In this document: positions 15,242 to 35,997 of the stretch, piece by piece
Layout of the letters: every line of letters begins with the position of its first letter
How positions within the stretch are numbered: position 1 is the stretch's first letter
Assembly: GCA_947165975.1 (NCBI GenBank)
Contig: CAMVCL010000010.1
Span: 1-36,483 of the forward strand
Direction of reading: 5' to 3'
Length of the DNA stretch: 36,483 nt
Source of the DNA: an uncultured Candidatus Saccharibacteria bacterium
Lineage (GTDB): Bacteria; Patescibacteriota; Saccharimonadia; Saccharimonadales; Saccharimonadaceae
Made by a program: the position numbers and the translations under genes
The notes under the pieces: model-generated
Databases searched by the model: none
What the model was told of the DNA's origin: nothing
What the model saw: the letters and a program-made list of their open reading frames with translations, nothing else

Positions 15242-15681
15242 AAGTTAAATCACTTACCGAATATGATAAAACCACCGCTGATCGCGTGCGCGAACTATTA
15301 ATCCAACTATCTCGTAGCGGTAAAGATCGTGGCGAGATCCCTGAAGCCTGGTTCGAAGACCTTATTAACTCACCCCATCACGATATGTTACTCGCCTATG
15401 ACGATAGCGATAAAATTATCGGCATCGCAACCTTATCTATTATCATGGGGCCAATCGTCCGTAAGGTCGCCTACCTAGAAGATTTTGTCACCGATGAATC
15501 AATTCGTGGACAGGGTATCGGATCCGCCATTTGGCAAGCCATGCTCGCCTGGGCTAAAGAAAAAAACTGCACTGAACTCTGTTTTACTTCTGGACATGGC
15601 CGCGAAGCTGCACAAGCCTTTTATATTCACAAGGGGGCCGAAATTTACGATACTAACTTCTTCCGCATGAAAATACAATAG
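15238..15681 (+). CDS. GNAT family N-acetyltransferase
   Basis: The protein has 147 residues with a single GNAT fold. The acetyl-CoA pyrophosphate loop is in YLEDFVTDESIRGQGIGSA (motif A, Arg/Gln-x-x-Gly), followed by a helix and by the terminal REAAQAFYIHKGAE block (motif B). The ATG overlaps the glmM stop (ATGA), so it is translationally coupled to the mutase. The EDFVTD-RGQGIG block resembles eukaryotic glucosamine-6-P acetyltransferases as well as many unrelated GNATs, so substrate assignment is not possible from sequence. Its last 37 bases overlap, tail to tail, the end of the surface-polymer gene on the opposite strand. Confidence 0.88.
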   Translation: MKVKSLTEYDKTTADRVRELLIQLSRSGKDRGEIPEAWFEDLINSPHHDMLLAYDDSDKIIGIATLSIIMGPIVRKVAYLEDFVTDESIRGQGIGSAIWQAMLAWAKEKNCTELCFTSGHGREAAQAFYIHKGAEIYDTNFFRMKIQ

Positions 15682-17120: not shown

Positions 17121-18333
17121 GGATAAACGCCTTTATCTCCTTATCGAATCGCTGCACATCAAATTCATTAACAGATTTTGATATTTTCACGCGATCGAAT
17201 TTCATTTTTTCAAAACGGAGAATCGCTTCCGCCAAAGATTTCGCCGATTGCTCACTAAACAAAATTCCATTTTTTCCATCAATTACATAGTCTCTTGCTC
17301 CACCTTCTCCAAAAGCAATTACCGGACATCCAGCCGCTAAAGCTTCTACGGGTGCAATCCCAAACGGTTCTAAACTAGGGAACAAATAACCTTTTGCTTG
17401 ACTCAAATATCTAGCCAAATCGTCCTTTTTCATCAAAGGCAAAAATTGCACTAATTCAGAACCTTTAGCCATTTTAACTAACTTATCATGCTCAGGGCCT
17501 TCGCCAATCACTAACAAGTGCCTTTGCGACATCTCACAAGCTTTCACCGCAAGATCAATCCGTTTCCAGTTAACTTGACGAGAAGTAGTAATATATGTTT
17601 TAGCTAAGTCTAAGTTTTCCACAACCTGTGTAGAATCTTTCTCTTGACTTTTTTTAGATTTATTGTTTCCCTTGCGCTTGTTGTTTACTTGACTTTTTTC
17701 AGAATTATTACTTCCCTGCTTAAAATCCTCTATCTCAACCGGCGGATGAATAATACTTGCTTCCCTGTTATAATATTTTTTAATTTGTTCTTTAGCATAT
17801 TCTGAAATCGTCAAATAATAATCCGGTCGTTTGGCAGCTCTACGATCGGCAGATCTTAAAGGCCTTACTGTCAATCTAAACCCTAACCTGATTAAAGGAT
17901 TCAAAACTCCAAACCCCGGATTTTTCAGATACATCTCATACATCTGCCAATAATATTGTGTCGGCACATGACAATAGCTAATATGAATTCCTTTTGGATT
18001 TTTTACGTTCTTCTTTCCCTTTTCGTGAAGCCATTTTCCTGACTTCACAGATTTAGCTTCCGCCCCTGTTACCGAAATAATCAAATCATACTCTGATAAA
18101 TCTAGATGTGAAAAATACCATTGTCTAAACGGCCCTAAAATCCTTCTTAACTTCGTCGGAAACATCTGCAACCAACCAGTCCGCACTTCTGCATCTTTAA
18201 ACCAGTCAATTCCCTTTGGGTCATATTTCGAAGTATAAATCGGCGCCTTTGGATACATCTGATGTAATTCCAATAGAACCTTTTCTGCTCCACCAACATT
18301 AGTCAACCAGTCACAGACTAAGGCAACTTTCAC
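17104..18333 (-). CDS. GT4 family glycosyltransferase with low-complexity insertion
   Basis: The protein has 409 residues and a two-domain GT-B fold. The N-terminal domain contains CDWLTNVGGAEKVLLELH (Gly-rich acceptor loop) and ISYCHVPTQYYW. The C-terminal domain contains ITTSRQVNWKRIDLAVKA, LLVIGEGPEHDKL and the donor-binding FPSLEPFGIAPVEALAAGCPVIAF (the E-x7-E motif of GT4). Between the domains, residues about 206-240 are a Lys/Asn/Ser/Gln-rich insertion with imperfect repeats, absent from typical members. It starts with GTG overlapping the sugar transferase stop (GTGA). It probably adds the second sugar to the lipid-linked primer on the cytosolic side. Confidence 0.93.
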   Translation of the reverse strand: MKVALVCDWLTNVGGAEKVLLELHQMYPKAPIYTSKYDPKGIDWFKDAEVRTGWLQMFPTKLRRILGPFRQWYFSHLDLSEYDLIISVTGAEAKSVKSGKWLHEKGKKNVKNPKGIHISYCHVPTQYYWQMYEMYLKNPGFGVLNPLIRLGFRLTVRPLRSADRRAAKRPDYYLTISEYAKEQIKKYYNREASIIHPPVEIEDFKQGSNNSEKSQVNNKRKGNNKSKKSQEKDSTQVVENLDLAKTYITTSRQVNWKRIDLAVKACEMSQRHLLVIGEGPEHDKLVKMAKGSELVQFLPLMKKDDLARYLSQAKGYLFPSLEPFGIAPVEALAAGCPVIAFGEGGARDYVIDGKNGILFSEQSAKSLAEAILRFEKMKFDRVKISKSVNEFDVQRFDKEIKAFIHGKVE

Positions 18334-19754
18334 TTGGCGCCTTCCCCTTTAATTACAATGGCTATCGTTTTGAAGAAAATCGAAAGATCGAGTCCTAATG
18401 ACCAATTCCTCACATAATAAATATCTAGCGCCCTTCTTTCTTCAAACGAAATATTTCTTCTTCCTGACACCTGTGCAAACCCTGTTAATCCAGATTTTAC
18501 AGTTAAAAGAAGTGACCTGTCGCCATAATCTCGCAATTCCCCTGGCATCAACGCACGTGGTCCTATCAAAGAAATATCTCCCTTCAAAATATTAAACAAT
18601 TGTGGTAGCTCATCAATTGAAGTACGGCGCAAAAACTTCCCAATCTTCGTAATACGCGGATCATTTTTCAGATAGTCTCCGTCTTTACGATATTTCTTTA
18701 CTAGTTCAGGCTTTCCCATGATCACAAAAGCTTTCTCCGCCGGCATACCACTATATTCTGGCTTCATTGAACGAAACTTATAACACTTAAATTTTCGATT
18801 ATATTGAGTTAATCTTTCGTCTGCATAAATCGCTGGGCTCTTCAAATCCGACATTTTAATAATCATCCATACTAGCATCATCGGAATAGCTGCTATAATA
18901 ATAGCCACTAACGAAAAAAGGATATCGAATAATCTTTTAAATAATGCGTATCCCCCCACTAAAGGCGTCACCATTACCATCACCGCCGGAGTATTACCGA
19001 TCAACTCTAATTCTCCAAAATGCGATGAGAGCGCCGTTTCCGAAGGCACAAAATAGTATTCCAAATGCCGTATCACTGTCTGTCTATAAACATATTCTGT
19101 GGATTTTTCATCTGTTTGGAAAATGACATCTGCCCGTGATTTTCTCAAGGCATCCTTCAAAGATGAATACTGATGTGTTTTTAAATCTCTGGGGATAAAG
19201 TGTTTATTTGACACAATCCCTGCTAAACGATAGCCAGACTCCGGCGTAGAGGAAATATAATCCGCCAGATATCCCGTATTTTTATGGTTTCCTATGATAA
19301 TTGCACGCTTTACGGCATAATCATTTCTAAAAACCAGACGAATTACTAGCCTTACAACAATACGCTCAAGAACCAAAAACACAAACGATAATGCTACCGC
19401 AGTTAGCGCCATTATACGTACTGGAAAAATATTTTCCCCCACGAAAAAATCATAAACAATCAACGCTGCCACAGAAAGAATCGCTGCAAGAAATAACCTT
19501 CCTCTTTCTGGCAATCTAGTTTTACCTAGAAAAATAGATTTACGATACAATCCCAGCGCCGCCAAAATAATCAACATAATTGGCACCAAAAACACAATTG
19601 ATAACGTAAACTCTCTAAATTGCGCTTCAAATACATATGGTCTCGGGTCCACATGCACTCTAATAAAATAAGCCATTGCAAACGACAAAATCAGAGCCAA
19701 TGCATCTCCAATAATCAGACATAATCGTAAGATAAAATCGGACTTTTTCCGCAT
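18330..19754 (-). CDS. Undecaprenyl-phosphate sugar-1-phosphate transferase (WbaP/WcaJ-like)
   Basis: The protein has 474 residues. Four N-terminal membrane helices (about 8-125) are followed by a Rossmann-like domain (RAIIIGNHKNTGYLADYI), a fifth hydrophobic segment near 265-290, and the catalytic bacterial sugar transferase domain. Key blocks are FKCYKFRSMKP, DPRITKIGKFLRRTSIDELPQ and LFNILKGDISLIGPRAL, then GLTGFAQVSGR. These enzymes start capsule or exopolysaccharide repeat units by moving a hexose-1-P to undecaprenyl phosphate. It is the first gene of the three-gene glycan operon, with its own leaderless promoter. The sugar (Glc, Gal or an N-acetylated derivative) is not determined. Confidence 0.95.
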   Translation of the reverse strand: MRKKSDFILRLCLIIGDALALILSFAMAYFIRVHVDPRPYVFEAQFREFTLSIVFLVPIMLIILAALGLYRKSIFLGKTRLPERGRLFLAAILSVAALIVYDFFVGENIFPVRIMALTAVALSFVFLVLERIVVRLVIRLVFRNDYAVKRAIIIGNHKNTGYLADYISSTPESGYRLAGIVSNKHFIPRDLKTHQYSSLKDALRKSRADVIFQTDEKSTEYVYRQTVIRHLEYYFVPSETALSSHFGELELIGNTPAVMVMVTPLVGGYALFKRLFDILFSLVAIIIAAIPMMLVWMIIKMSDLKSPAIYADERLTQYNRKFKCYKFRSMKPEYSGMPAEKAFVIMGKPELVKKYRKDGDYLKNDPRITKIGKFLRRTSIDELPQLFNILKGDISLIGPRALMPGELRDYGDRSLLLTVKSGLTGFAQVSGRRNISFEERRALDIYYVRNWSLGLDLSIFFKTIAIVIKGEGAK

Positions 19755-21815: not shown

Positions 21816-22220
21816 ATGAGTTATAGTACTAAGCAAAAAAGAAGCATCTCGAATTATATCAAAAAGTTAAACAAAGATTTTACCGCTAAAGATATTTACG
21901 AATATTTTAAAGGAGAGATTGGATTAACTACAATTTATAGATTCGTAGAAACCCTAGAAAAAGATGGCACAATTCTTCGTATTACTACAGATGAAAATAC
22001 CACAAGGTATCAGTATATCAAACCATGCAATCACGCCGACCACTTCTATTTAAAATGCGAAGAGTGTGGGGACCTAAAACACGTAGATTGTAAAAAGATT
22101 CAAGGCCTCACAACGCATATTTCAGAAGAACACCACTTCATTCCGACGAACACAAATCTGATCATCAATGGTCTTTGCGCAAAATGTGCGAGAAAGGAAA
22201 ACCATGAAAAAGAACACTAA
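21816..22220 (+). CDS. zur: Fur-family metalloregulator, probable Zur
   Basis: The protein has 134 residues. An N-terminal winged helix contains the recognition helix region GLTTIYRFVETLEKDG (36-51). The C-terminal metal/dimer domain has HADHFYLKCEECG (Cys81, Cys84) and CAKC (121-124), the structural zinc site of Fur-family proteins, plus several His residues. It starts at an ATG with AAGGAA upstream. The operator in its own promoter and the downstream ZnuABC-like genes argue for zinc-responsive repression. Fur or Mn-type specificity cannot be excluded by sequence alone. Its last 17 bases overlap the solute-binding protein gene. Confidence 0.88.
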   Translation: MSYSTKQKRSISNYIKKLNKDFTAKDIYEYFKGEIGLTTIYRFVETLEKDGTILRITTDENTTRYQYIKPCNHADHFYLKCEECGDLKHVDCKKIQGLTTHISEEHHFIPTNTNLIINGLCAKCARKENHEKEH

Positions 22221-23154
22221 AATATTACTCGCCCTTGCCATAATATTATTTTCTGGAATAATCGCAGTCATTAACCTCAGCAATAATAAAAACTCTCAAA
22301 AGATATCAATCGTTACAACAAATTTCCCAGCCTATGATTTCGCCCGCGCCGTAGCCGGCGATAAAGCAGACATTAAGATATTGATAAAACCCGGCACTGA
22401 AACACACGATTTCGAACCAACCCCAAACGACATTATTGATATCAAAAACAGTGATCTATTTATTTATACCGGTGGCGAATCAGATGAATGGATAAAAGGT
22501 ATCCTAGATAACATCGACACGAACAAAACCAAATTTTTCAAAATGATGGATGCCGTAAATGTCGCAGAAGAAGAGACTGTAGACGGTATGGAAGAAGAAC
22601 AAAAACACCATAATGATGAAGAAATAGAATACGATGAGCATGTATGGACTAGTATCAAAAATGCCACAAAGATCACCAACCGTATTAAAGACGAACTAAT
22701 TATAATCTTTCCAAAAGACAAACAAGTTTTTGAAGAAAACACTCAAAAATACACAAGTAGGTTAACAAAACTTGACGCAGAATTTCAGGACGTCGTGAAC
22801 AGGGGGAGCAGAAAGACTATCATCTTCGGCGATCGCTTCCCTCTTCGCTATTTTGTAGATGATTATGGACTAGATTATTTTGCGGCCTTTCCAGGCTGTT
22901 CTGAGCAAACTGAAGCTAGCAGCAATACTATTGCATTCCTCGTAGAAAAAATCAAGCAAGAAAACATCCCGGTCATTTTCAAAATTGAAATGAGCAGCGG
23001 AGATATCGCCGAAACTATTGCTAATGAAACTAACGCCAAAGTTTTAACATTCAATACTGCTCACAATATTTCAGCCAATGATTTTAAAAATGGGCGTACC
23101 TACGTAGACATTATGGAAGAAAACCTAAAAGCCCTTGAGGAGGCGCTTAGATAA
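22204..23154 (+). CDS. znuA: ZnuA-like metal-binding protein of an ABC importer
   Basis: The protein has 316 residues in the cluster A-1 (ZnuA/PsaA) family that binds Zn or Mn outside the membrane. An N-terminal hydrophobic helix (about 7-25) has no lipobox cysteine, so it is probably an uncleaved anchor or plain signal. Metal ligands are His68 in GTETHDFEP and His146 in YDEHVWTS, preceded by an acidic/His loop (121-146, with KHHNDEE). The usual third His position reads FGDRFPLRYFVDDYG, with Asp-Arg instead, and FPGCSEQTEAS follows, a variant known in a subset of Gram-positive relatives. The start at 22204 has AAAGGAAAA upstream and overlaps zur. Confidence 0.92.
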   Translation: MKKNTKILLALAIILFSGIIAVINLSNNKNSQKISIVTTNFPAYDFARAVAGDKADIKILIKPGTETHDFEPTPNDIIDIKNSDLFIYTGGESDEWIKGILDNIDTNKTKFFKMMDAVNVAEEETVDGMEEEQKHHNDEEIEYDEHVWTSIKNATKITNRIKDELIIIFPKDKQVFEENTQKYTSRLTKLDAEFQDVVNRGSRKTIIFGDRFPLRYFVDDYGLDYFAAFPGCSEQTEASSNTIAFLVEKIKQENIPVIFKIEMSSGDIAETIANETNAKVLTFNTAHNISANDFKNGRTYVDIMEENLKALEEALR

Positions 23155-23825
23155 TGAACTTAATCTCACTAAACAAAATCAAACTCGGTTACAACAATAA
23201 CATCGTAATTAATAACCTAAGTCTTAATATAGAAGAACAAGATTTTATTTGCATTGTTGGCCCCAACGGCTCCGGCAAAACCACCTTAATCCATGGGATT
23301 TTGGGGCTGCTTCCCCTCAAATCTGGTAACATCAAATTTAATATAGAAAAAACCCAAATTGGATATATGCCACAAGAAACCGCCGTAGACTCCAATTTCC
23401 CAGCTTCAGTTTTCGAGATAATACTTTCTGGCTCACTAAATAATCATCAAAATTTTTACAGTGAAAAAACCAAAGAGCACGGAGAAGAAATACTAAAACT
23501 ACTTGGTATAAAAAACCTAAAAAATTTGAGCTTTTCAGAATTATCCGGCGGCCAACGTCAAAAGGTCTTATTAGCACGTGCACTCATGGCAACACAAAAA
23601 CTGTTAATCCTAGACGAACCTTCCAACAATCTAGATCAAAAATCAAAACAAGATTTATATAAAGTTATCCGTAATCTAAATAAAAAACAAAAAATCACCA
23701 TTATTATGATTACTCACGATTTGGATCATGGCAACTTAATCGGTGACAAAATTCTATCACTTCATGACAAAGATTATTTCTTTGGTACCACCGAAGAGTA
23801 TATCAGAAAGGTACACCATGAATAA
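23154..23825 (+). CDS. znuC: ABC transporter ATPase of the Zn/Mn importer
   Basis: The protein has 223 residues. It contains Walker A GPNGSGKT (36-43), Q-loop near YMPQE, signature LSGGQ (130-134), Walker B LLILDEP and the H-loop His188 (MITHDLD). It powers uptake through the partner permease. The ATG directly abuts the stop of the binding-protein gene with a one-base overlap, and the end overlaps the permease by 8 bases, so the three are translationally coupled. Confidence 0.95.
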   Translation: MNLISLNKIKLGYNNNIVINNLSLNIEEQDFICIVGPNGSGKTTLIHGILGLLPLKSGNIKFNIEKTQIGYMPQETAVDSNFPASVFEIILSGSLNNHQNFYSEKTKEHGEEILKLLGIKNLKNLSFSELSGGQRQKVLLARALMATQKLLILDEPSNNLDQKSKQDLYKVIRNLNKKQKITIIMITHDLDHGNLIGDKILSLHDKDYFFGTTEEYIRKVHHE

Positions 23826-24630
23826 TTTAATTGAAATGTTTTCGTATTCATTTATGATTCGTGCACTTATTGCCGGCGTTATGATATCATTATCCGCAGC
23901 ACTAGTCGGCACACCCCTAGTCCTAAAAAGAAACTCCATGCTCGGGGATGGACTCTCTCATGTCGCATTTGGTGCTTTTGCACTAGCAATAGCACTTAAT
24001 CTCACTCCAATCTGGATAGCAATTCCAATAGTTATCATAGCGTCGTTTTTCATCCTTAAATTAAATAGTAACTCAAAAATCCATGGCGATTCTGCTATTG
24101 CCGTATTATCCGCCAGCGCACTCGCAATCGGTACGTTTATCGTCTCACTAACTGGAGCCAACATTGATATTAATAGTTATCTTTTTGGCAGCATTCTGTC
24201 TATTGGTAACAATGAAGTATTTCTTTCGCTCATACTCCTAACTATTATTATTACAATTTATATCATATTTCATAATAAGATATTCGCACTCACTTTCGAC
24301 GAAAAATTTGCACGCGCCATCGGAATCAACACCAAAGTTCTTAACGCAGTATTTGCCATTCTCTGCTCCGTACTCATTGTACTCGGTATGCGTTTAGTCG
24401 GCGCGCTATTAATTTCAAGTCTAATTATTTTTCCAACATTATCAGCTCAAACAATCTTCAAAAGCTTTAAAAGTGTGACTATTGCTGGAGCAATATTATC
24501 AATCATTGCCTTTACGATCGGGTTAATCGCATCATATCTACTCAGTACGCCAACTGGCGCCACAATAGTCATCGTAAATTTGTTTACGTTACTCGTCCTC
24601 AAACTTCTTAGCTGTCTAATCAAAGAATAA
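23818..24630 (+). CDS. znuB: ABC-3 family permease of the Zn/Mn importer
   Basis: The protein has 271 residues and about eight membrane helices. It includes the family block NSMLGDGLSHVAFGAFALA near the N-terminus and GMRLVGALLISSLIIFPTLSAQ toward the end, both typical of ABC-3 (ZnuB/MntB) permeases. The ATG at 23818 sits inside the ATPase 3' end. It is the last gene of the zur-znuACB operon and ends only 13 bases from the convergent acyl-ligase gene, with no strong terminator visible between them. Confidence 0.94.
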   Translation: MNNLIEMFSYSFMIRALIAGVMISLSAALVGTPLVLKRNSMLGDGLSHVAFGAFALAIALNLTPIWIAIPIVIIASFFILKLNSNSKIHGDSAIAVLSASALAIGTFIVSLTGANIDINSYLFGSILSIGNNEVFLSLILLTIIITIYIIFHNKIFALTFDEKFARAIGINTKVLNAVFAILCSVLIVLGMRLVGALLISSLIIFPTLSAQTIFKSFKSVTIAGAILSIIAFTIGLIASYLLSTPTGATIVIVNLFTLLVLKLLSCLIKE

Positions 24631-24643
24631 GGAATCTTGTACT

Positions 24644-26050
24644 TTATTCCATCAACTTTTCATTTTTCCTCTTAAGTGATAACTCATAGCCAATAATCCG
24701 ATCTTTTTTGGCACATTTTTCATTAAAAGACTCGACAAGATCATCTAAATTGGTTTTATTGGTATCCATCAAGAAAAATTCAGCATATAATCTATCATTT
24801 CGAAGCGAAAACCTCACATCATTTACATTGCTATTCATTTTCTTTATTTTTTTTAACAAATCATCTGGGTAAATACTTTCGCCATTACTGCCAATCAAGA
24901 CTTTCTTTTTGCGTCCAGTTACAAACAACTTACCATTTTTTATGTGCCCAAGATCACCAGTCTTAAAATATCCGTCATTGGTAAGATAATCTATACCTTT
25001 TACAGTATATCCCAAAAACACACAGTTGCCTTTTACACAAATTTCGCCATTACCTTCTTTATCTGTATCAATAATTTTCACATCCAAATCTTCATAAATC
25101 GTACCCACATCCTCATCATCTGTATCACCAGGATAGCTCACAGCAAATGATGAAGCCGTTTCCGACAAAGCATAAGCATTCAAAATTTCCAGACCACATT
25201 TTTTATAAATCTGCTTCAGCTCCTTACTAATTGGTGCTCCGCCTGACACCAAAAACCTAATTCTATCACCAAAAGCTTTACTCACGTCATTATGATAGAC
25301 CTCAGCAATACGCTTATATATTAGCGGCACTGCGCCAAGAATAGTCGGCCTAACTTCTAAAAGTTCCTCGCCAATTTTCGCTATATCACTACAAAGATAA
25401 ATACTTAGTCCTGAAACTAACGAATAATAAAAAATATAAAGATTAGCATATGTGTGATGCAGGGGCAAGAATAAATACATAATGTCAGACATCACAAACT
25501 CTGCTCGTCGTTTCAAATATGGCCAACCATAATACATATTTTTAAAAGATAGCTTCACACCTTTTGGTTTTGAAGTCGTTCCACCAGTAAAGACAATTTT
25601 TGTACATTCATCCGGGTTATATTTTTTATAATCATTTCTGGCCTCATTTAATTCAGGAATAATTTCGTCAATATTAATTTTCAAAACATTATCTTTTATT
25701 ATATCGATTTTGTCAGCCTGATCATTTCCAAATAGCACTGCTTTCACACCTAAGCTTTCAACCATGCCAGCCAAATCTTCTGTACTCACTGAAGCAGCAG
25801 TATTTACACAAACACCCGTATAAACAGTAATAGCAATATCAGCAATCATTAAATTAGTTGAGTTTTTGCCAATCAACATTATTCGCTGATTCATCAAGCC
25901 ATCGTCAATTAACTTCGTCGCGAACGCCCGCGCTTTAAACACAAAATCATTAAATTTTATCGCGGAATATTTTCCATCACGTTTTTCAAAAATATATTCT
26001 TTATTATTGAATTTTTTCAAATCTTCTTCTAACAGTTTCTGTACATTCAT
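24644..26050 (-). CDS. AMP-forming acyl-CoA/acid ligase (ANL superfamily), 2
   Basis: The protein has 468 residues and activates a carboxylic acid as the acyl-AMP. Motifs are the P-loop-like FTGGTTSKPKG (154-164), LPLHHTYANLYIFYY, YALSETASSFAV (A5), YFKTGDLGHIKNGKLFVTGRKKKVLIGSNGESIYP (A7-A8, cited as two adjoining blocks: FKTGDLG and GRKKKVLIGSNGESIYP) and a short C-terminal domain ending in KRKNEKLME. The HHTYAN and GRKKK blocks resemble long-chain fatty acyl-CoA synthetases. The C-terminal subdomain is shorter than in most. The ATG has AAGGAG upstream. It is the last gene of the seven-gene minus-strand operon; substrate unknown. Confidence 0.9.
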   Translation of the reverse strand: MNVQKLLEEDLKKFNNKEYIFEKRDGKYSAIKFNDFVFKARAFATKLIDDGLMNQRIMLIGKNSTNLMIADIAITVYTGVCVNTAASVSTEDLAGMVESLGVKAVLFGNDQADKIDIIKDNVLKINIDEIIPELNEARNDYKKYNPDECTKIVFTGGTTSKPKGVKLSFKNMYYGWPYLKRRAEFVMSDIMYLFLPLHHTYANLYIFYYSLVSGLSIYLCSDIAKIGEELLEVRPTILGAVPLIYKRIAEVYHNDVSKAFGDRIRFLVSGGAPISKELKQIYKKCGLEILNAYALSETASSFAVSYPGDTDDEDVGTIYEDLDVKIIDTDKEGNGEICVKGNCVFLGYTVKGIDYLTNDGYFKTGDLGHIKNGKLFVTGRKKKVLIGSNGESIYPDDLLKKIKKMNSNVNDVRFSLRNDRLYAEFFLMDTNKTNLDDLVESFNEKCAKKDRIIGYELSLKRKNEKLME

Positions 26051-26058
26051 ACATCTCC

Positions 26059-27471
26059 TTAAACTAATGACAATAATTTTTTATAATCTGTTTTAGTATA
26101 ATGTCTTACGTCATGTGGCAACTTACTAATATATTTATATTTTACCTTGAATCCATATCTTTCAAATAACGCACTTTCAATTTTTTTTGCATGCTTACGT
26201 TCAGTACCAAATAAATAAATTTTGTTGTTCTTTTGCAAAACCGCACACTTCCTGTAGTTCGGAAATTTCACGGACAAAAATTGCTCAATCTCGTGACTAT
26301 AATATTTTTTCCCATTAAAAACAATATAGTAATTAAACTTCCCACGATAATATAACACGCCATTCTCAATATATCCTTTATCATTTGTATCATACCAATC
26401 ACCATCACGTATTCCATATTCAGATCTTTCATTAATAAAACCTTTAATCAGTGCATTACAACTGACTAAAATCGATTCGTCACCTGCAATTTTAATACTC
26501 ACGCAATCAAATGGTTTACCTAACGTAGACCGATAATTGTTACGAAGCTCACGAATATAATCAGGAAGAACGACCCATGCCATAATATTACACTCTGTCG
26601 CGCCATACACCATAATGTTTTTTGAACTAGCAAACTTCTTCTGAATCATTTCTGCCTCTTGCAAATTAATTGAAGCACCACCAATATAAAGTAGCTTCAA
26701 CTTCGGAAAAATATTATCCGCCTTAAGCCCAAAAACTGGCGAAGTAATAATAATCGAAATCGGTAAATTTTTAAATGCCTGCAAATGATCATTAATTTTC
26801 TTAGCCGAAGCGTTTAAATTAATCTGCGGTAGCACCGCTGTATCACCACGCGCCAGAATCGCAAAAATATAAATAAACGCGGTAGACATAATAACATTAC
26901 TTTCATCTATTGGCAAATTCTTGTCCATTAGCTCTAGCTGATTAAATAAATCGAGGTGCGAACGAACAATTATTTTTGGAACCCCAGTTGAGCCAGTAGT
27001 CGTCGTAAGAAGAGCCGGTACATCATCGGCTATTTTTGGTAGTCTACTAAGTTTAACTTCATCAAACTTAATCCTATCCAAATTCAATACTTCAAGCCCA
27101 TGTCGAATATTTTTAAACAGGAGATGCAAATATTTTGTTCTATTTGAAACCAATACATATTTTGGCTTAAATCTTTCGAATAGTATATCAAATGTTTCCT
27201 GGCGCGCATGAATATCCAAAAACATCACTTGGACACCAAGCTTAAAGGCAGCAATCATAAAAACCGTCAATTCATACGAAACTGTAGCAAACAGAAAAAC
27301 CGAATCACCAGTCTTAACACCTGAAGTAATTAGATAATTAATGCACGAATCAATATCAGTTTTTAGCTCGCCATATGTTCGCTTCTGAAGGGTTTTATCA
27401 TAAAAATAAATCGCATCTTTTTCAATATTGTTTAAACAAGCATCATCAAAAATATCCGCAATTTTACTCAC
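26059..27471 (-). CDS. AMP-forming acyl ligase (ANL superfamily), 1
   Basis: The protein has 470 residues. It shows ATP-loop TTTTGSTGVPK (156-166), YGATECNIMAW (A5), DGDWYDTNDKGYI (A7), LYYRGKFNYYIVFNGKKYYSHEIE (hinge and C-domain entry) and RHYTKTDYKKLL near the C-terminus, with the candidate catalytic lysine at about 460. The RH-x-x-K-x-D ending and compact size recall OleC-like or dedicated acyl ligases more than fatty acyl-CoA synthetases; this is a resemblance, not an assignment. It starts with GTG overlapping the stop of the BtaA-like gene and is followed 8 bases later by a second ligase that is clearly divergent from it, so the pair probably acts on different acids or in sequence. Confidence 0.88.
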   Translation of the reverse strand: MSKIADIFDDACLNNIEKDAIYFYDKTLQKRTYGELKTDIDSCINYLITSGVKTGDSVFLFATVSYELTVFMIAAFKLGVQVMFLDIHARQETFDILFERFKPKYVLVSNRTKYLHLLFKNIRHGLEVLNLDRIKFDEVKLSRLPKIADDVPALLTTTTGSTGVPKIIVRSHLDLFNQLELMDKNLPIDESNVIMSTAFIYIFAILARGDTAVLPQINLNASAKKINDHLQAFKNLPISIIITSPVFGLKADNIFPKLKLLYIGGASINLQEAEMIQKKFASSKNIMVYGATECNIMAWVVLPDYIRELRNNYRSTLGKPFDCVSIKIAGDESILVSCNALIKGFINERSEYGIRDGDWYDTNDKGYIENGVLYYRGKFNYYIVFNGKKYYSHEIEQFLSVKFPNYRKCAVLQKNNKIYLFGTERKHAKKIESALFERYGFKVKYKYISKLPHDVRHYTKTDYKKLLSLV

Positions 27472-28547
27472 TTTTTAACCTCATATATTAAAAGGTCGCG
27501 ATAAAACCACGCCTTATTTTGTTCAAATAATTTTTGCGATAAGTTTTCATCCAGTACAAAAGTATCATTACGAATATAACGTCTATTTTGCATATTCCAA
27601 TATAGTATCTTGCTACCATTTTTTACTCGCTTTTTTAGAGTTTCAATATTTTGCCCAAACTCTAAATCACTCATATATTCAAAAATATCCGACAAATAGA
27701 AGAAATCATATTTCAAATCCGGTAAATCACCCAGATTACCATGGACCAATTCCAATTTATCAAGATTAGCTCGAATTAGCTTATAGTATTCTGGTTGAAG
27801 ATACAACGGAAAAGCGTGCGTAAAATTATTATTAGCGATGTAATCAAGATATGGATTCTCCGAATTTTTAGTATGAAACAGTCCGTATTCAACTTTCTTT
27901 TTCAAATCATAACTATTATTTTTAACATCATTTTTATCGACATGTTCAAAAAAAGCTTTGTCACGACCGTACTTTGCCATAGATTTGTATCCAAAAAAAA
28001 TTTTAAAAAGTATTCGAAAACGACGTGTATCAATTTTTCGCACATAAAATTCTTTCTGAGTTTTTAAATTATCCATTTTCGAAAATTCACTATAATTATT
28101 TTTACTAGAAGTAGTTGGAATAATATATTTACGGAACAATTGAAAATAATGCTCAAATTTTCCAGTATGTACAATGCCTTTCTTGATAAAATCAATGTGC
28201 TCATCAAAATACCGCTGTGCATCCTTAGACATATTGTCGCAGACCTGCTTGTATAGTCCTAGTCGCTCTCCGTCTGTCACGCCCAACAAACATTTGGTCT
28301 CATCAAGTGTCAAATTAGCGATCGCAGCAATCTTTAGCTCAGTACAATAGAGCTGTGTTTTATTTACATCAAAAGCATAGATTTTTTTAGGTGATTTTAT
28401 TAGCATCGCTAAAACATTATCGCCACCCGAGCAAACTACAGCGCCTATTTGCCCCGTTTTAATACTTATCCCATCGAGAGCAATGTCAGTATCTTCCCAA
28501 ACATTCGAATACCGAATTATATTAAAAACTTTGTCATTTTTTATCAC
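27468..28547 (-). CDS. BtaA-like (DUF3419) S-adenosylmethionine aminocarboxypropyl transferase
   Basis: The protein has 359 residues. The order of blocks fits the DUF3419/BtaA family: YSNVWEDTDIAL at the start, the SAM-binding VVCSGGDNVLAMLI (SGGDN 40-44), YAFDVNKTQLYCTELKIAAI (Asp60, then the LKLAAI-like helix), GKFEHYFQLFRKYIIP, LELVHGNLGDLP and DFFYLSDIFEYM. BtaA moves the 3-amino-3-carboxypropyl group of SAM to diacylglycerol in betaine-lipid synthesis (family knowledge). The acceptor here may differ, and the downstream methyltransferase BtaB is not present. GTG start with GGAG upstream; it is coupled to the following ligase. Such a gene is unexpected in a reduced CPR genome. Confidence 0.85.
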   Translation of the reverse strand: MIKNDKVFNIIRYSNVWEDTDIALDGISIKTGQIGAVVCSGGDNVLAMLIKSPKKIYAFDVNKTQLYCTELKIAAIANLTLDETKCLLGVTDGERLGLYKQVCDNMSKDAQRYFDEHIDFIKKGIVHTGKFEHYFQLFRKYIIPTTSSKNNYSEFSKMDNLKTQKEFYVRKIDTRRFRILFKIFFGYKSMAKYGRDKAFFEHVDKNDVKNNSYDLKKKVEYGLFHTKNSENPYLDYIANNNFTHAFPLYLQPEYYKLIRANLDKLELVHGNLGDLPDLKYDFFYLSDIFEYMSDLEFGQNIETLKKRVKNGSKILYWNMQNRRYIRNDTFVLDENLSQKLFEQNKAWFYRDLLIYEVKK

Positions 28548-28551
28548 TTTT

Positions 28552-31068
28552 TTACTCCAATATTTCTATAGTACCATTAACACCATCTACTCGTACAGTG
28601 GCTCCGTCTGGGACTTTATCTGTCAAATTCTTTACGCTTACCACCAGCGTCATCCCCATTTCACGCGCAATCACTGCCGAATGCGAAAGCATGCTACCGT
28701 GCTCAATAATAATCGCTTTCGCCATCGGGAATAATGTGGTCCATCCTGGATCAGTACGCTTCGCCATCAAAATACGATTCTTCACATCTGCGTTATTTGG
28801 ATTGGTGACATATTTTACTTTTCCTATCACGACCTTACCACCACCAGCCGTGCCAGTCAAAACCTTCTCACTATTTGGCTTAATCTTTGCAAAGATCGGC
28901 AAAGCATTTTCAGGAACAATGTCTCCATAGAAATAAATTCGGTCGTACACCTCTTTTTTCGCATTTGCGTAATAAAGAGCTTTTCGCGTCTTTATCAATT
29001 CGTGCATATCGATTTTTTTGTTTTTCGAAATATAATCAAAAATTTCGGTTTTTTCCAAAAAGAAAATGTCACGATAATTGTCAATTAGCCCCTCCTTCTC
29101 AAAGTTACGTCCAATACTAAGGAAAATATTCCTCACCACAGAATAAATATACGTTCGTCTAAGCCTTAATGATTCACGATTTTTAATAAAATACTTCGAA
29201 AGTTTAAGCAATTCTCTAATTTTTATTCTAGCCACTGGCGATAAACCTTTATATAGTTCTTTCTCATCATCTATCGAATGTTTCTTGTGTTTCACTTTTG
29301 GTAGCTCCGGCATTTCTAAATATTCAGAAATCATTTCATAGAGCAGATTTGGATTTTGCTGCATAGTCACAGTTTCAAGCTTTAGTTCATCCATTGTACG
29401 TGGACCATATTTATAAATATAATCTTGGAGCATTGCATCAAGTTCTGAATATTTCTTTACATTTTTCCAGTTTTTTTTATGTCTAAACAAATCTGACCAT
29501 TCTACATTCTTCTTTATCTTTTCAACTATTTCAATCAAATCCGTAGTCTGTTTAACGCTTTCCACGCCACCTTCGTTCGCAAGTACTCTGCTAAGTAGTT
29601 GCTCAAAATTATCTGGTTTATATTTTTTTAATAGCTCCGTCAGTTTGCCAAACACTACCATCGTACCCATATCGTTCGAAATCGGCGTCACAAAATCATC
29701 TAAAATATTCTTTTCAAGATCACTATAAATCTCAACCAATTCTTTGTTAGAATATTCATCAAGCGACTTATTATAATACGCACCCACAACTTCATCAAAT
29801 CGTTTAATAAATTCCTTGCTGAGTTTTTTCATTCTCGTCATTCTACTTAAAAAACTCGCATATATTTTTATTCGACGCGTATTCTCCTGCGCCGCTGTTT
29901 CACGTAGAGGCGTCTTCACCCCCATCATAGTTTCCATGTATTGTTTATTCTTATTATAGCCGGGATATAAGGCTGTCATTTTATACCAACCATTAAGTCG
30001 GTAATAGATTTTGTTCTCAAAAAAGAATAACATGTGATCAAGGTCATATGCAATTGATTCAATATCTTCTTCTCCAATGTAAAAGCTTCGCAGAGTTTGA
30101 CGGTAAATCTTACCGTAAATTTCCCTTGCAAATGAATAAGTTAAATCCGAAGTTACGCCAGCATAACTTTCTATAATATTAGAGTTGTCCAAGATTGTCC
30201 GTGGCTGGTCTTTATCAACATATGAATAATTCGTAATTAAACGACATTGCAATACATAAACCTCATCATCCTTTACACAATATTCAATATCCACACCGCG
30301 ACGCGGCTTATAGCACCTTTCAATTTTTAATGCTATCTCATTTAGCTTCAAAACGGTTGCGTCACTAAGTTTTATCGACCCTTTTTCATTGCGTTCAATA
30401 ATTTCACCCAAACAGTCCACCGAATAATCAGTACTATCATTCTTGCCGGATACTAAATTCTCACCAATCCCTTTCACTACGCTGATCACGGTTTCATCAG
30501 TGTTATTTGTAACTGGATTAGTCGTAAACATTACACCAGAAAAGTCTGCATTAACCATTTCTTGAACAATGACCGCAACACCAATTCCTGAATTAATTAT
30601 TTTATTGTCAGCACGATATTTCATAATACGTTTAGAAAATGCAGAAATATAACATTTTTTTACCGCTTTCAACAACTCATCCACATCGTTTCTTATGTTA
30701 AGATACGATTCAAGCATCCCAGCAAAACAATATTTCTCGCCATCTTCATCACTAGCACTAGAACGTACGGCAAAATTCGTTTCAGGTGAAAAACATTCAC
30801 CAATTATCTCCGCTAGCTCTTCACGAATACTACCATCAAATTCCGACGTCTCAATAAGGGCAATAATCTTTGCATCATTCTCCGGTTTATAGTGTTCTAA
30901 TAGCTTTGCATATTTTTCATAATTATTACCCAAAAATTTTTCGAAACATTTTCTCGGCAAACACACCCATCTTGGTACGTTAAATCCACTCTTCTCTAAG
31001 TGACGCAAATTATACGCCTTACCACCCACTTCATTTAAAGACATTTTATCATCAAGATCATAAATCAT
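28552..31068 (-). CDS. PEP synthase/rifampicin-phosphotransferase-like dikinase
   Basis: The protein has 838 residues with three parts. The N-terminal ATP-grasp-like domain has VGGKAYNLRHLEKSGFNVP, FAVRSSASDEDGEKYCFAGM, DFSGVMFTTNPVT and GVDIEYCVKDDEVYVLQCR. A long helical middle (about 300-730) is unlike PEP synthase and is reminiscent of the substrate domain of rifampicin phosphotransferases. The C-terminal swivelling phosphohistidine domain has TDPGWTTLFPMAKAIIIEHGS followed by LSHSAVIAREMG (His796). Known relatives split ATP to AMP and phosphate and phosphorylate pyruvate or an antibiotic. The TIM-barrel PEP domain is absent, so the phosphate acceptor is probably another small molecule. 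The ATG overlaps the UbiA-like stop (ATGA). Confidence 0.88.
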   Translation of the reverse strand: MIYDLDDKMSLNEVGGKAYNLRHLEKSGFNVPRWVCLPRKCFEKFLGNNYEKYAKLLEHYKPENDAKIIALIETSEFDGSIREELAEIIGECFSPETNFAVRSSASDEDGEKYCFAGMLESYLNIRNDVDELLKAVKKCYISAFSKRIMKYRADNKIINSGIGVAVIVQEMVNADFSGVMFTTNPVTNNTDETVISVVKGIGENLVSGKNDSTDYSVDCLGEIIERNEKGSIKLSDATVLKLNEIALKIERCYKPRRGVDIEYCVKDDEVYVLQCRLITNYSYVDKDQPRTILDNSNIIESYAGVTSDLTYSFAREIYGKIYRQTLRSFYIGEEDIESIAYDLDHMLFFFENKIYYRLNGWYKMTALYPGYNKNKQYMETMMGVKTPLRETAAQENTRRIKIYASFLSRMTRMKKLSKEFIKRFDEVVGAYYNKSLDEYSNKELVEIYSDLEKNILDDFVTPISNDMGTMVVFGKLTELLKKYKPDNFEQLLSRVLANEGGVESVKQTTDLIEIVEKIKKNVEWSDLFRHKKNWKNVKKYSELDAMLQDYIYKYGPRTMDELKLETVTMQQNPNLLYEMISEYLEMPELPKVKHKKHSIDDEKELYKGLSPVARIKIRELLKLSKYFIKNRESLRLRRTYIYSVVRNIFLSIGRNFEKEGLIDNYRDIFFLEKTEIFDYISKNKKIDMHELIKTRKALYYANAKKEVYDRIYFYGDIVPENALPIFAKIKPNSEKVLTGTAGGGKVVIGKVKYVTNPNNADVKNRILMAKRTDPGWTTLFPMAKAIIIEHGSMLSHSAVIAREMGMTLVVSVKNLTDKVPDGATVRVDGVNGTIEILE

Positions 31069-31646
31069 TTACGCAAACTCCTTTTATAAATTGCATAAAT
31101 AGTCGAAAGCACCAAACACACGCCACAAGTCACAGCTAATTTCCAGTCCACCATATAATCATAAATCCAAACAAAATATAAAATCATAAGAGAGCTCATC
31201 AAAATCTCTAAGTACTCACAAATAAATTGAAACGAAAGCATATATAAGACAAACAGAATTGATACTAAACCTTTCCATTGAAAACAAGCGATGTTGAAAA
31301 TTACAAAAGCCGCATTAAATACAATCGCCATTACAATATTATCTTTGTGATAAAACATTTCTTTATTGTGCTCAATGTCATATTCCCAGTCTAAACAATT
31401 ATCAATATACCGTAACGAATAAAGTTGCAATAAAGTAAAAATCGCAAACTGCCAAAAACTAAATCCGAAAACAAAATAAGCTACCGCACCGGACACTAAA
31501 GCCACAAAAGGATACGAATATGTCTTTTTGTTAATGAAAAATTTACAGATTTTTTTAAATGATAACGGTGATGGCCCTAGGGCTTTCTTTTTTAGCTCCG
31601 TTACATTCGTCCTAATCATTCTTTTGCTATTACTTTGCAACTTCAT
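31065..31646 (-). CDS. Short membrane protein with UbiA-like Asp-rich motif
   Basis: The protein has 193 residues, a basic N-terminal ~40 residues and about five hydrophobic helices. After the second helix lies RYIDNCLDWEYDIEHNK (79-95), which resembles the NDxxDxxxD metal/diphosphate motif of UbiA prenyltransferases. The protein is about one third shorter than UbiA and lacks a clear second Asp motif, so it may be a half-size or degenerate relative, or chance similarity. It has AAGGAG upstream and lies directly after the GNAT-like gene. If real, it would act on a polyprenyl or isoprenoid diphosphate in the membrane. Confidence 0.6.
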   Translation of the reverse strand: MKLQSNSKRMIRTNVTELKKKALGPSPLSFKKICKFFINKKTYSYPFVALVSGAVAYFVFGFSFWQFAIFTLLQLYSLRYIDNCLDWEYDIEHNKEMFYHKDNIVMAIVFNAAFVIFNIACFQWKGLVSILFVLYMLSFQFICEYLEILMSSLMILYFVWIYDYMVDWKLAVTCGVCLVLSTIYAIYKRSLRK

Positions 31647-32525
31647 TTAAAGCTCCTTTCTAAATAACGCATAACGTTTTTCGTCAGATTCATACTGTTT
31701 GTCAAAACGTTTAAAATCTGGTTTTTGTTCGCACTGAAAATGATAAATCATATCATTAAAGCCCATCTGTTCAACAAATCCAGAACCATAATATAATAGT
31801 GCTGCAAATATTTGTTGGTTTTGATATTCTTGTTTCACGGCACTAGTTTTTGAAATAAAATTATCTGCAAACGGGTTTCTATATCCAAGCGCAAAACCAA
31901 TCGCCTGGCCATATTTATATGCAACAAATAGCTGCGCATCAATTTTCCTTATCCAAGACAAATAAAACCTTTCAAAATATTCAAACGGCAAATCGTAATA
32001 AAGCCACGCACCTTTAAATGCATCACAAGAAATCTCATAAATCTCGCGCGCTTTCAATAATGCCTCATTGCCCTCAAAGTGCTTAAAATCAAACCCTTGT
32101 GCCTGTTTTTTTTCATAGCTCTTTTTGCCAAGCCCATAAAGAGGATTATGAATCTTTACCCGCGCGCTACGATAAGTCAAAAACTTACTATAACCCAACT
32201 TCTCCAAATAGTCCACATAGTATCTTGGGTTGTTGCAATCTGGAAACAATTTCATATCATAACGATCTAAAGCTAAACGATAAGAAAACCATGTACAATA
32301 ATTAATTGGGCCAATAATATCATTATAACCCATCTCACGCGCTCGTTTTTCAACACGCTCAAATAGCTTCTTTACCGTCTCATAATCTTCTGGCAAGTCA
32401 ATAAACCCAAAAAGACATGGGTGATCAGCTATTTTAGAGTTAACAATCAAATAGGCCTTCGCTTTATCCTCCTCAAACAATTCCGAATAATCAGCTAATT
32501 CTAATATTGCTAATTCCTCATTCAT
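31647..32525 (-). CDS. GNAT-fold acyltransferase-like protein
   Basis: The protein has 292 residues from the ATG at 32525, which overlaps the kinase stop (ATGA) and has GAGG upstream. An N-terminal part with ARE.GYNDIIGPINYCTWFSYRL and a CNNPRYYVDYLEKLGYSKF block, followed by a C-terminal GNAT-like half (AQLFVAYKYGQAIGFALGYRNPF, then a helix with YQNQQIFAALLYYGSGFVEQMG), matches a group of double-domain acyl-CoA N-acyltransferase-like proteins. The classic R/Q-x-x-G-x-G/A loop is weak. It probably transfers an acyl or aminoacyl group to an amine; the substrate is unknown. Confidence 0.72.
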   Translation of the reverse strand: MNEELAILELADYSELFEEDKAKAYLIVNSKIADHPCLFGFIDLPEDYETVKKLFERVEKRAREMGYNDIIGPINYCTWFSYRLALDRYDMKLFPDCNNPRYYVDYLEKLGYSKFLTYRSARVKIHNPLYGLGKKSYEKKQAQGFDFKHFEGNEALLKAREIYEISCDAFKGAWLYYDLPFEYFERFYLSWIRKIDAQLFVAYKYGQAIGFALGYRNPFADNFISKTSAVKQEYQNQQIFAALLYYGSGFVEQMGFNDMIYHFQCEQKPDFKRFDKQYESDEKRYALFRKEL

Positions 32526-33625
32526 AAACAAGCCCTCAAAACTTTACGTACATTTTTCTCGCATCCACTGGCTAGCTTGTTGTGATTTTTTTTACTATAC
32601 GAACGAAAAATAGCTAAACGATTAACTACATATTCCAATGCATTGAAACGCATTCGTCTCGTGAATTCCTCATCACTAATTCCCTTTTTAGTTTTATTTA
32701 CAAGCTGCTTACGATAGTAACCAATTACTTTTCGGATTTGTTCAAAAGTACAATTATCATCAGCTGTCGTAAATAATAATTCAACTAAATCATGCTCGGG
32801 ATTTTGGAAACAAGCCAACTCCCAATCATAAATAATTATTCGTTCATCAATAGAAATATTACGAGGCGTCAAGTCATTATGCGTCAAAGTTTGACAATCC
32901 ATCACTTTCGCATATTCTTCATCTATATGTTCGATAAAACCATTAATAACTTCTACTAATTCTTTTCCGTACAATTTTACATTTTCGTCATAGTAATAAT
33001 TAAACAACGCACGCAAAGCGCCACGAGAACTCCGATAATCATTTGGTGTATAATAATTTAACCTCATCTCTCGTATTATTCTTCGATTATTGTAGTATTT
33101 AGCATGAAAATCCGTTATCAAGTCGATAATCTTATACAAATCGCCAAAAATAACCTCACGACCTCGCGAGAATTCAACCATTGCCAGTGATACTCTCTGT
33201 CCATTAAATGACTCGCACGCCCCAAGGAATTGCGGTAAAGCGCCACTTAAAGAACCGTCAACCTTCTCATAAAACAATTTTTCACGTTTTCTCCCACTAT
33301 TAAAACCAAAAATACGATGTCGCATAATTATTTTTAGAAAAATATCAAAACTCGGAGAAAGTAAAGTTGCCCCGAACGGTACGACCAAACTATTTTTATG
33401 TTTTATCACGATATGATGATTCTCGCCATTAGTATCAATTACTTTATAGAACATTACCGCATGTTTCCCAGAAAACTTACTGGAAATAGTATCCACTTCA
33501 TCAGACGAAAACTTCTGAAAGTTTTTATACTTTGGAAAAATCGAACAAATTAACTTTTGATCAGTCATTATTAATTTAAACCAGTATTTTTGATATTGCT
33601 TTCCCTTAATTATACCATGTGTCAT
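32522..33625 (-). CDS. APH/choline-kinase-fold phosphotransferase
   Basis: The protein has about 367 residues. The C-terminal half has the Brenner-type catalytic loop LTHNDLTPRNISID (His249-Asp251) and the Mg-binding IIYDWELACF (Asp267), as in aminoglycoside phosphotransferases, choline/ethanolamine kinases and homoserine kinases. The N-terminal lobe contains HHIVIKH as a possible ATP-lysine strand. The substrate may be a hydroxyl of a sugar, amino alcohol or lipid head group. The start is unsure: the ATG at 33625 is used here, 33661 is possible, and an extended -10 at 33609-33617 would instead favour the ATG at 33568. It is the first gene of the seven-gene operon. Confidence 0.82.
   Translation of the reverse strand: MTHGIIKGKQYQKYWFKLIMTDQKLICSIFPKYKNFQKFSSDEVDTISSKFSGKHAVMFYKVIDTNGENHHIVIKHKNSLVVPFGATLLSPSFDIFLKIIMRHRIFGFNSGRKREKLFYEKVDGSLSGALPQFLGACESFNGQRVSLAMVEFSRGREVIFGDLYKIIDLITDFHAKYYNNRRIIREMRLNYYTPNDYRSSRGALRALFNYYYDENVKLYGKELVEVINGFIEHIDEEYAKVMDCQTLTHNDLTPRNISIDERIIIYDWELACFQNPEHDLVELLFTTADDNCTFEQIRKVIGYYRKQLVNKTKKGISDEEFTRRMRFNALEYVVNRLAIFRSYSKKNHNKLASGCEKNVRKVLRACL
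33609..33617 (-). promoter_or_regulatory. Extended -10 promoter of the seven-gene operon
   Basis: TGG-TATAAT on the minus strand would start transcription near 33602. If used, the kinase must begin at the ATG at 33568, because the upstream ATGs lie before the transcript start. Alternatively the operon starts farther upstream, near 33650. Confidence 0.45.
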
Positions 33626-33655: not shown

Positions 33656-33681
33656 AAACATAAGTAATATAAGGAATTATT

Positions 33682-35505: not shown

Positions 35506-35997
35506 ATGAAAAAAGAGCTAAAAATCTCTATACCAATCCTTATCGTCATAATCATTTCTGTTATTGTTACAACGATCATAATGAATAATAAAGAACCAGC
35601 AATAGACCCAAATCTCACACAAGAAGCCAGCCAGCAAAACGATAACGAGGAAAACCCCATGAATGAAATATTTGTTAATCTCAATGGACAAAAACTCAAA
35701 ATTAATCTAGAAGACAATTCAACTACATCAGCTTTGATTAAACTATTACCGTTAAGTCTTTCAATGAACGACCTAAACGATAATGAAAAATACGTCTATC
35801 TAGACGAATCATTACCAACCAACACTTTTAGTCCAAAACATATAGAATCAGGCGATGTTATGCTCTATGGCGATAATTGCCTCGTAATCTTCTATAAATC
35901 ATTCAGCACAAACTACGACTACACCAAAATTGGCCAAATCGATAACCTACCAAATTTAGGCGATGGCGAAGTCTCTATAAGTATTAGTACGGAATAA
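35506..35997 (+). CDS. Membrane-anchored cyclophilin-like protein
   Basis: The protein has 163 residues. An N-terminal anchor helix (about 7-27) precedes a linker and a beta-rich domain. EIFVNLNGQKLKINLEDNST, ALIKLLPLSLSMNDLNDNEKY, YLDESLPTN, GDVMLYGDNCLVIFYKSF and YTKIGQIDNL together match the cyclophilin-like domain often called PF18050, frequent in gut Firmicutes and Bacteroidetes. In this family the peptidyl-prolyl isomerase residues are not conserved and the ligand is unknown. The ATG follows the hydrolase stop without a gap (TAA-ATG), so the genes are coupled. Confidence 0.88.
   Translation: MKKELKISIPILIVIIISVIVTTIIMNNKEPAIDPNLTQEASQQNDNEENPMNEIFVNLNGQKLKINLEDNSTTSALIKLLPLSLSMNDLNDNEKYVYLDESLPTNTFSPKHIESGDVMLYGDNCLVIFYKSFSTNYDYTKIGQIDNLPNLGDGEVSISISTE

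Follow-up and report, generated by a model that had tools for sequence, protein, structure and literature searches.

A gene cassette shared by many bacterial phyla, present as a seven-gene operon in a Saccharibacteria contig, may encode synthesis of a lipid-like metabolite

The 36,483-nucleotide window analysed here (contig CAMVCL010000010.1 of assembly GCA_947165975.1, positions 1 to 36,483, from an uncultured Candidatus Saccharibacteria bacterium, a tiny organism of parasitic type) carries an operon of seven uninterrupted minus-strand open reading frames (ORFs). The operon spans positions 24644-33625, or up to 33661 by the start in the ORF list, and is transcribed in the order KIN, GNAT, UbiA-like, PPDK, DUF3419, ANL2 and ANL1:

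32522..33625, minus strand: KIN, APH/EcKL-type small-molecule kinase (from Pfam, motifs and PDB relatives)
31647..32525, minus strand: GNAT, tandem-GNAT acyl- or aminoacyltransferase (Pfam, homologs and an AlphaFold2 model)
31065..31646, minus strand: UbiA-like truncated membrane protein of about six helices (family alignment and model)
28552..31068, minus strand: PPDK-like dikinase with a rifampin-phosphotransferase (Rph) layout (Pfam, PDB match and motifs)
27468..28547, minus strand: DUF3419, of the BtaA-like S-adenosylmethionine (SAM)-dependent 3-amino-3-carboxypropyltransferase family (Pfam and homologs)
26059..27471, minus strand: ANL2, acyl-adenylating ligase, OleC/FadD/DltA-like (Pfam and the copies in genomes G457 and G458)
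24644..26050, minus strand: ANL1, acyl-CoA-synthetase-like ligase, MenE/FadD-like (Pfam and the same two copies)

A preliminary description of this DNA had reported seven packed genes, and the spacings, all between -4 and +8 bases, confirm it. With the GNAT start at the ATG at 32525, KIN and GNAT overlap by 4 bases, GNAT and the UbiA-like gene abut, and the UbiA-like gene and PPDK overlap by 4. A gap of 4 bases separates PPDK from DUF3419, DUF3419 and ANL2 overlap by 4, and 8 bases lie between ANL2 and ANL1. An alternative GNAT start, the TTG at 32531, gives a first overlap of 10 bases. Clear Shine-Dalgarno sequences precede five of the seven starts (UbiA-like, PPDK, DUF3419, ANL2 and ANL1). 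The KIN start at 33625 has a G-rich leader and appears more plausible than the ORF-list start at 33661. Terminator-like sites in the region (9 versus 6.0 expected, standard deviation 2.5) are near chance and none lies at a gene junction; a promoter scan of the region was also near chance level. Tight packing by itself is unremarkable in a reduced genome. The excess over chance lies in the recurrence of the set elsewhere.

Recurrence of the gene set across bacteria

We scanned genome contigs with two DUF3419 proteins and picked loci by DUF3419 similarity alone, keeping the best 80 of more than 500 matches. These loci were annotated with profiles from two starting cassettes; the profiles were built from these same loci, and many of the records are metagenome bins. 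Among the 51 loci with flanks of 3.5 kb or more on each side, the dikinase, ANL2 and UbiA were each found in 48 (UbiA as 34 full-length and 14 short proteins) and GNAT in 45. This bears out a co-occurrence of DUF3419 with PPDK-like and ANL proteins beyond the window, which the preliminary description had proposed as a check. At least 17 phylum-level groups hold a locus with at least five of the six core genes. The group names come from the titles of the records, and two groups do not correspond to clean phyla: one gathers unnamed records, and the other is a cyanobacterial record that was listed separately. On a Roseinatronobacter plasmid, UbiA, dikinase, DUF3419, membrane protein, GNAT and ANL ligase genes stand in a row. 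Thus, the same gene set recurs over many bacterial phyla and is more than a one-genome oddity. This recurrence and the unbroken ORFs both favor the preliminary description, which had singled out restriction to one genome and frameshifts as evidence against itself. No DUF3419 relative was found in viral contigs.

The cassette comes in two main versions. The r-type combines a full-length UbiA with a membrane protein of about 440 residues, PHYK, and is carried by cyanobacteria, Methylomonas, Verrucomicrobia, Melainabacteria, some Clostridia and others. From its conserved motifs and weak CTP_transf_1 and DUF92 matches, we infer that PHYK is phytol/dolichol-kinase-like. Its pairing with UbiA would resemble tocopherol-type phytol salvage (VTE5/VTE6 plus UbiA). 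However, the cassette adds SAM, dikinase, GNAT and ANL chemistry to such a scheme, and the window has a soluble APH-type kinase where the r-type has the membrane kinase. A gene of the 3-hydroxy-3-methylglutaryl-CoA (HMG-CoA) reductase family (Pfam, 380 bits) is also present in 19 loci with PHYK. A mevalonate role for this reductase is unlikely, because HMG-CoA synthase is absent in 9 of 10 such genomes, some of them draft metagenome-assembled genomes; a different thioester is therefore the probable substrate of the reductase. Some r-type loci have Aas-like acyltransferases and MMPL exporters nearby. In one cyanobacterial cassette (L053:7079-9981), the dikinase is split into three ORFs, possibly through assembly errors or decay.

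The w-type is carried by Ruminococcus, other Oscillospiraceae and Catonella morbi. It has KIN in place of PHYK, a short UbiA, a second ANL ligase and a WbuX-like, amidotransferase-like PP-loop gene (NCBIfam, 149 bits, under its cut-off). The exact order KIN-GNAT-PPloop-UbiA-PPDK-DUF3419-ANL2-ANL1 occurs in 17 loci. The window operon is thus a reduced copy of a larger Firmicutes cassette, which corrects the preliminary description. KIN (20 loci) and PHYK (53 loci) never co-occur, and this mutual exclusion suggests that a phosphorylated alcohol is probably required. In two outlying loci (L025:7239-9995 and L049:4612-7362), an HMG-CoA-reductase domain is fused to a KIN-type kinase domain, a fusion that would link the making of an alcohol to its phosphorylation. 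The N-terminal extension of this fusion protein looks PilZ-like by eye. Read most simply, the pathway would depend on an alcohol and its phosphorylated form, and lineages would differ in using unrelated kinases.

Families and catalytic motifs of the encoded proteins

Most of the catalytic motifs checked appear to be retained across the operon enzymes. KIN matches EcKL (1.5e-6) and APH (2e-6) in Pfam and carries the APH/EcKL-type catalytic motifs as HNDLTPRN (HxDxxxxN) and YDWE (DxE). In an alignment, the catalytic HND...RN...DWE residues are invariant over ten w-type homologs. The closest PDB relatives are aminoglycoside phosphotransferases. GNAT matches Acetyltransf_1 (2.1e-4) and is 49-56% identical to its w-type cassette homologs. 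Its AlphaFold2 model (predicted local distance difference test score, 91) has a tandem GNAT fold by comparison with 7q3a (Z 18.1 over 256 residues). Both ligases match the Pfam AMP-binding family, ANL2 at 1.8e-29 and ANL1 at 2.7e-46. All five core motifs searched are present in ANL2; in ANL1, the A10 lysine motif was not recognisable in a motif search, and the MenE-like (menaquinone) score is far under the cut-off.

The dikinase does belong to the PPDK-like family, as first described (PPDK_N, 5e-54; C-terminal PEP-utilizers, 7e-20), with a layout that is that of Rph and not of phosphoenolpyruvate (PEP) synthase. Rph is its best PDB match (1.6e-54), aligned over the ATP-grasp and C-terminal swivel domains, and the GGK, VRSSA and E..Q.R motifs and the swivel histidine in LSHSAVIARE all align to Rph. 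We rejected a PEP synthase reading because only the PPDK_N and PEP-utilizers domains are present, without a PEP-binding C-terminal barrel, and because the histidine is C-terminal as in Rph. The N-terminal ATP-grasp, middle substrate domain and C-terminal phospho-histidine swivel are shared with Rph and with PigC/RedH-type dikinases. However, the middle domain has diverged, and the protein scores under the NCBIfam cut-offs of those families. Unlike them, it sits in a conserved cassette and would not act on rifampin or prodigiosin precursors.

DUF3419 matches its Pfam family at 1.7e-46, is 40-51% identical to its w-type cassette homologs and keeps the RY..WED and SDIFEYM motifs found among them. 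A DUF3419-family aminocarboxypropyltransferase is the feature shared with the BtaA/BtaB pathway to the betaine lipid diacylglyceryltrimethylhomoserine (DGTS). In contrast to that pathway, five or six further enzymes recur with DUF3419, and the cassette proteins are only distantly similar to non-cassette DUF3419; matches outside the cassette on plasmids are only 24-33% identical. One such protein, on Rhizobium plasmid pMK-2 (L137, 1-6155), lies in a biosynthetic-looking cluster with a ketoacyl-ACP synthase III, an NAD(P)-dependent oxidoreductase, a metallo-beta-lactamase-fold hydrolase and a 'CoF synthetase'.

The UbiA-like protein has 193 residues and no Pfam match of its own; weak Pfam UbiA matches were found in four of nine family members. 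Its helix 2 ends with the first Asp-rich motif (DxxxDxxxD), and R79, D82, D86 and D90 do not vary among 17 cassette UbiA proteins, short and full-length. However, the UbiA superfamily is defined by a second Asp-rich motif and by eight or nine helices (PMC4106721). Unlike the full-length r-type members, the w-type protein stops after roughly six helices, so that both that motif and the last helices are missing. Its model shares the N-terminal bundle of UbiA prenyltransferases. It is closest to digeranylgeranylglyceryl phosphate synthase, with a Z of 8.2 over 132 residues that is borderline for helical proteins, and can be superposed on the first or the second half of UbiA. The resemblance comes from a second structural alignment; with Foldseek alone, the model had no significant match. 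Huang et al. (PMC4106721) proposed that UbiA derives from duplication of a four-helix dimeric protein. The shortening in the w-type looks secondary.

Copies in Saccharibacteria and neighboring genes

The window is contig 10 of an 882-kb assembly that is 99.5% complete. DnaK and RuvB are 82% and 72% identical, respectively, to those of Candidatus Saccharibacteria UBA3723 (G457), and a same-genus genome has a RuvB 80% identical to that of the window. These identities rule out contamination of the contig, which is genuine; the organism very probably belongs to the Saccharibacteria. Apart from the window's protein, the genome bin has one convincing UbiA match, which was discarded. It is a fragment on a small contig (G000:C30, L141) that also encodes a Bacteroidota-like lipoprotein and is a probable assembly contaminant.

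DUF3419 was absent from the other same-genus genomes searched, and from 379 genomes of the phylum except for one weak C-terminal match. In another Saccharibacteria genus, 3 of 45 genomes (G456, G457 and G458) hold the cassette. G456 has GNAT, PP-loop, UbiA, PPDK, DUF3419, ANL2 and ANL1, and no convincing KIN. The genes of G457 lie in two places, as the runs KIN-GNAT-PPDK-DUF3419 and UbiA-ANL2-ANL1. In G458, UbiA-ANL2-ANL1 lie inside one contig, PPDK-DUF3419 and KIN are on other contigs, and GNAT was not located separately. The PP-loop gene is absent from the window, G457 and G458. In trees, the UbiA-ANL2-ANL1 block of G457 and G458 groups with the window (support 1.000), and the G457 and G458 sequences of PPDK and DUF3419, from the first block, cluster with G456. 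The window is 63% identical to the G457 and G458 copies in ANL1, and 59% and 55% identical, respectively, in ANL2. A mosaic that still leaves each gene in a single copy argues most strongly for a functional unit.

The idea that the genes act together is therefore upheld, since the same seven genes are kept in G457 and G458 though split. The preliminary description had named separate transcription units with distinct known functions as evidence against itself; in these two relatives the genes do lie apart, but they are the same seven. In sum, its interpretation is partly supported: it stands in treating the genes as one set, and some of its family labels need correction.

The w-type sequences form one clade in the DUF3419 (100/100) and PPDK (100) trees, and the window is nested within it among Bacillota, on a long DUF3419 branch (1.03). 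This nesting makes gut Firmicutes the likely source of a transfer. The window operon is likely a horizontally acquired copy of the gut-Firmicutes version minus the PP-loop gene.

Inside the operon there is neither a regulator nor a transporter, as first described. The fur-znuA-znuC-znuB zinc-uptake genes (21816-24630) are convergent to it and lie 14 bases beyond the ANL1 stop. A divergent DUF5684 gene begins 21 bases from the ORF-list KIN start. We did not see an empty insertion site: the znuB/DUF5684 junction was kept in none of the same-genus regions examined around DUF5684 homologs. In three Saccharibacteria genomes, a gene for a cyclophilin-like protein (PF18050) is found at a distance of about 2 kb from the cassette, and this neighborhood could be a shared insertion site:

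Window 35506-35997, divergent to the cassette: cyclophilin-like, PF18050
L010:3476-3895, divergent to the cassette: cyclophilin-like, PF18050
L007:2779-3183, divergent to the cassette: cyclophilin-like, PF18050

The window also contains a surface-glycan gene group (15645-19754) with a Wzy-type ligase, a GT4 glycosyltransferase and a bacterial sugar transferase.

Proposed pathway and alternatives

We suggest, with a probability of about one-half, that the operon is an acquired biosynthetic unit that makes a lipid-like metabolite bearing a SAM-derived 3-amino-3-carboxypropyl group. The gene set, its conservation, the transfer between phyla and the kept catalytic motifs were computed; all substrates, the order of steps and the product are proposals. 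A lipid-like product is favored by the membrane enzymes, the alcohol kinases, the pair of ligases that activate acids, and the Aas-like acyltransferases and MMPL exporters sometimes encoded nearby. In this scheme, the APH-type KIN would phosphorylate an alcohol, a step left in other phyla to the phytol-kinase-like membrane enzyme. The UbiA-like protein would join or present a polyprenyl or alkyl (pyro)phosphate, and DUF3419 would move the aminocarboxypropyl group off SAM. The Rph-like dikinase may activate a hydroxyl or carboxyl group via its phospho-histidine. The two ANL ligases would adenylate acids, which are probably host-derived because Saccharibacteria reportedly do not synthesize membrane lipids and rely on those of the host (PMC10939385). 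GNAT would then transfer an acyl group, perhaps onto the new amine. The genome holds a SAM synthetase and UppS.

Several observations weigh against this scheme. DUF3419 is found outside the cassette too, and the gene set varies, with PP-loop, KIN, PHYK and the HMG-CoA reductase gained or lost, so that different lineages may make different products. A G-x-G search for the acetyl-CoA pyrophosphate loop (R/Q-x-x-G-x-G/A) found it in none of 19 w-type GNATs, compared with 21 of 46 r-type GNATs; an aminoacyl donor is therefore possible in the w-type. The alignment of the UbiA-like protein stops where the second Asp-rich motif starts in the full-length proteins, and no trans-polyprenyl-diphosphate synthase was found in the genome. 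Prenylation may therefore not occur here, and with UppS as the synthase present, any prenyl donor would be undecaprenyl or host-derived.

Family membership of DUF3419 at 1.7e-46, together with the reported dependence of Saccharibacteria on host lipids (PMC10939385), would also fit a betaine-lipid variant, in which DUF3419 would be a true BtaA that adds homoserine to (host-derived) diacylglycerol, with the remaining genes serving only for the activation and attachment of acyl chains. We consider this unlikely. No BtaB-like N-methyltransferase was found in the operon or the recurrent cassette families, to which the search for BtaB was confined, DGTS needs no dikinase, UbiA or kinase, and the non-cassette plasmid DUF3419 proteins are of low identity. 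Aminocarboxypropyl transfer is also employed in metallophores. The product might then be small and soluble, a nicotianamine-like metal chelator or a signal, with the adjacent fur-znuACB as its uptake system. However, znuACB is convergent and not co-transcribed, metal transporters are not among the recurrent neighbors of other cassettes, and UbiA and PHYK are membrane enzymes for lipophilic substrates. A soluble product is therefore quite improbable.

We also weighed salvage or breakdown of host lipids or prenols in place of synthesis of a new molecule. Catabolism can start with a kinase, ligases or a dikinase, an Rph-like two-component dikinase initiates aromatic catabolism (PMC12167813), and the host genome is reduced. 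However, the cassettes contain no recurrent family for beta-oxidation or other degradation, and SAM-dependent aminocarboxypropyl transfer is costly and anabolic, which makes salvage distinctly improbable. It is very improbable that the operon is a decaying, non-functional remnant of horizontal transfer. The patchy distribution (of the genomes searched in the genus, that of the window alone has the cassette, as do 3 of 45 in the other genus), the lost PP-loop gene and the long DUF3419 branch would suit a remnant. Against it stand 9 kb of unbroken ORFs that keep their catalytic motifs and ribosome-binding sites, and the complete seven-gene set kept in separate places in two relatives.

A bolder version of the biosynthetic proposal, which we regard as doubtful, would be an undescribed, nearly pan-bacterial pathway to an aminocarboxypropyl-tagged prenyl or alkyl lipid. 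Its Firmicutes/Saccharibacteria branch would use an obligately dimeric, single-motif UbiA, and the ultra-reduced Saccharibacteria would attach their own head group to lipids of the host.

The cassette appears to be undescribed as a pathway. Each protein belongs to a known family, and only the pathway would be new. Our searches of open-licence literature, with subscription papers and preprints outside their scope, found no description of this gene set, in agreement with the earlier statement that no named pathway has it. Conservation over some 17 phylum-level groups or more, among them cyanobacteria, gut Firmicutes and the named Methylomonas, suggests a sizeable unassigned class of metabolites or lipids. 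The short UbiA, even as a secondary truncation, makes it testable whether a single-motif unit works, which bears on the duplication proposal (PMC4106721). Saccharibacteria are reported not to make membrane lipids (PMC10939385), and finding the cassette in them prompts the question of whether these bacteria modify the lipids of their hosts.

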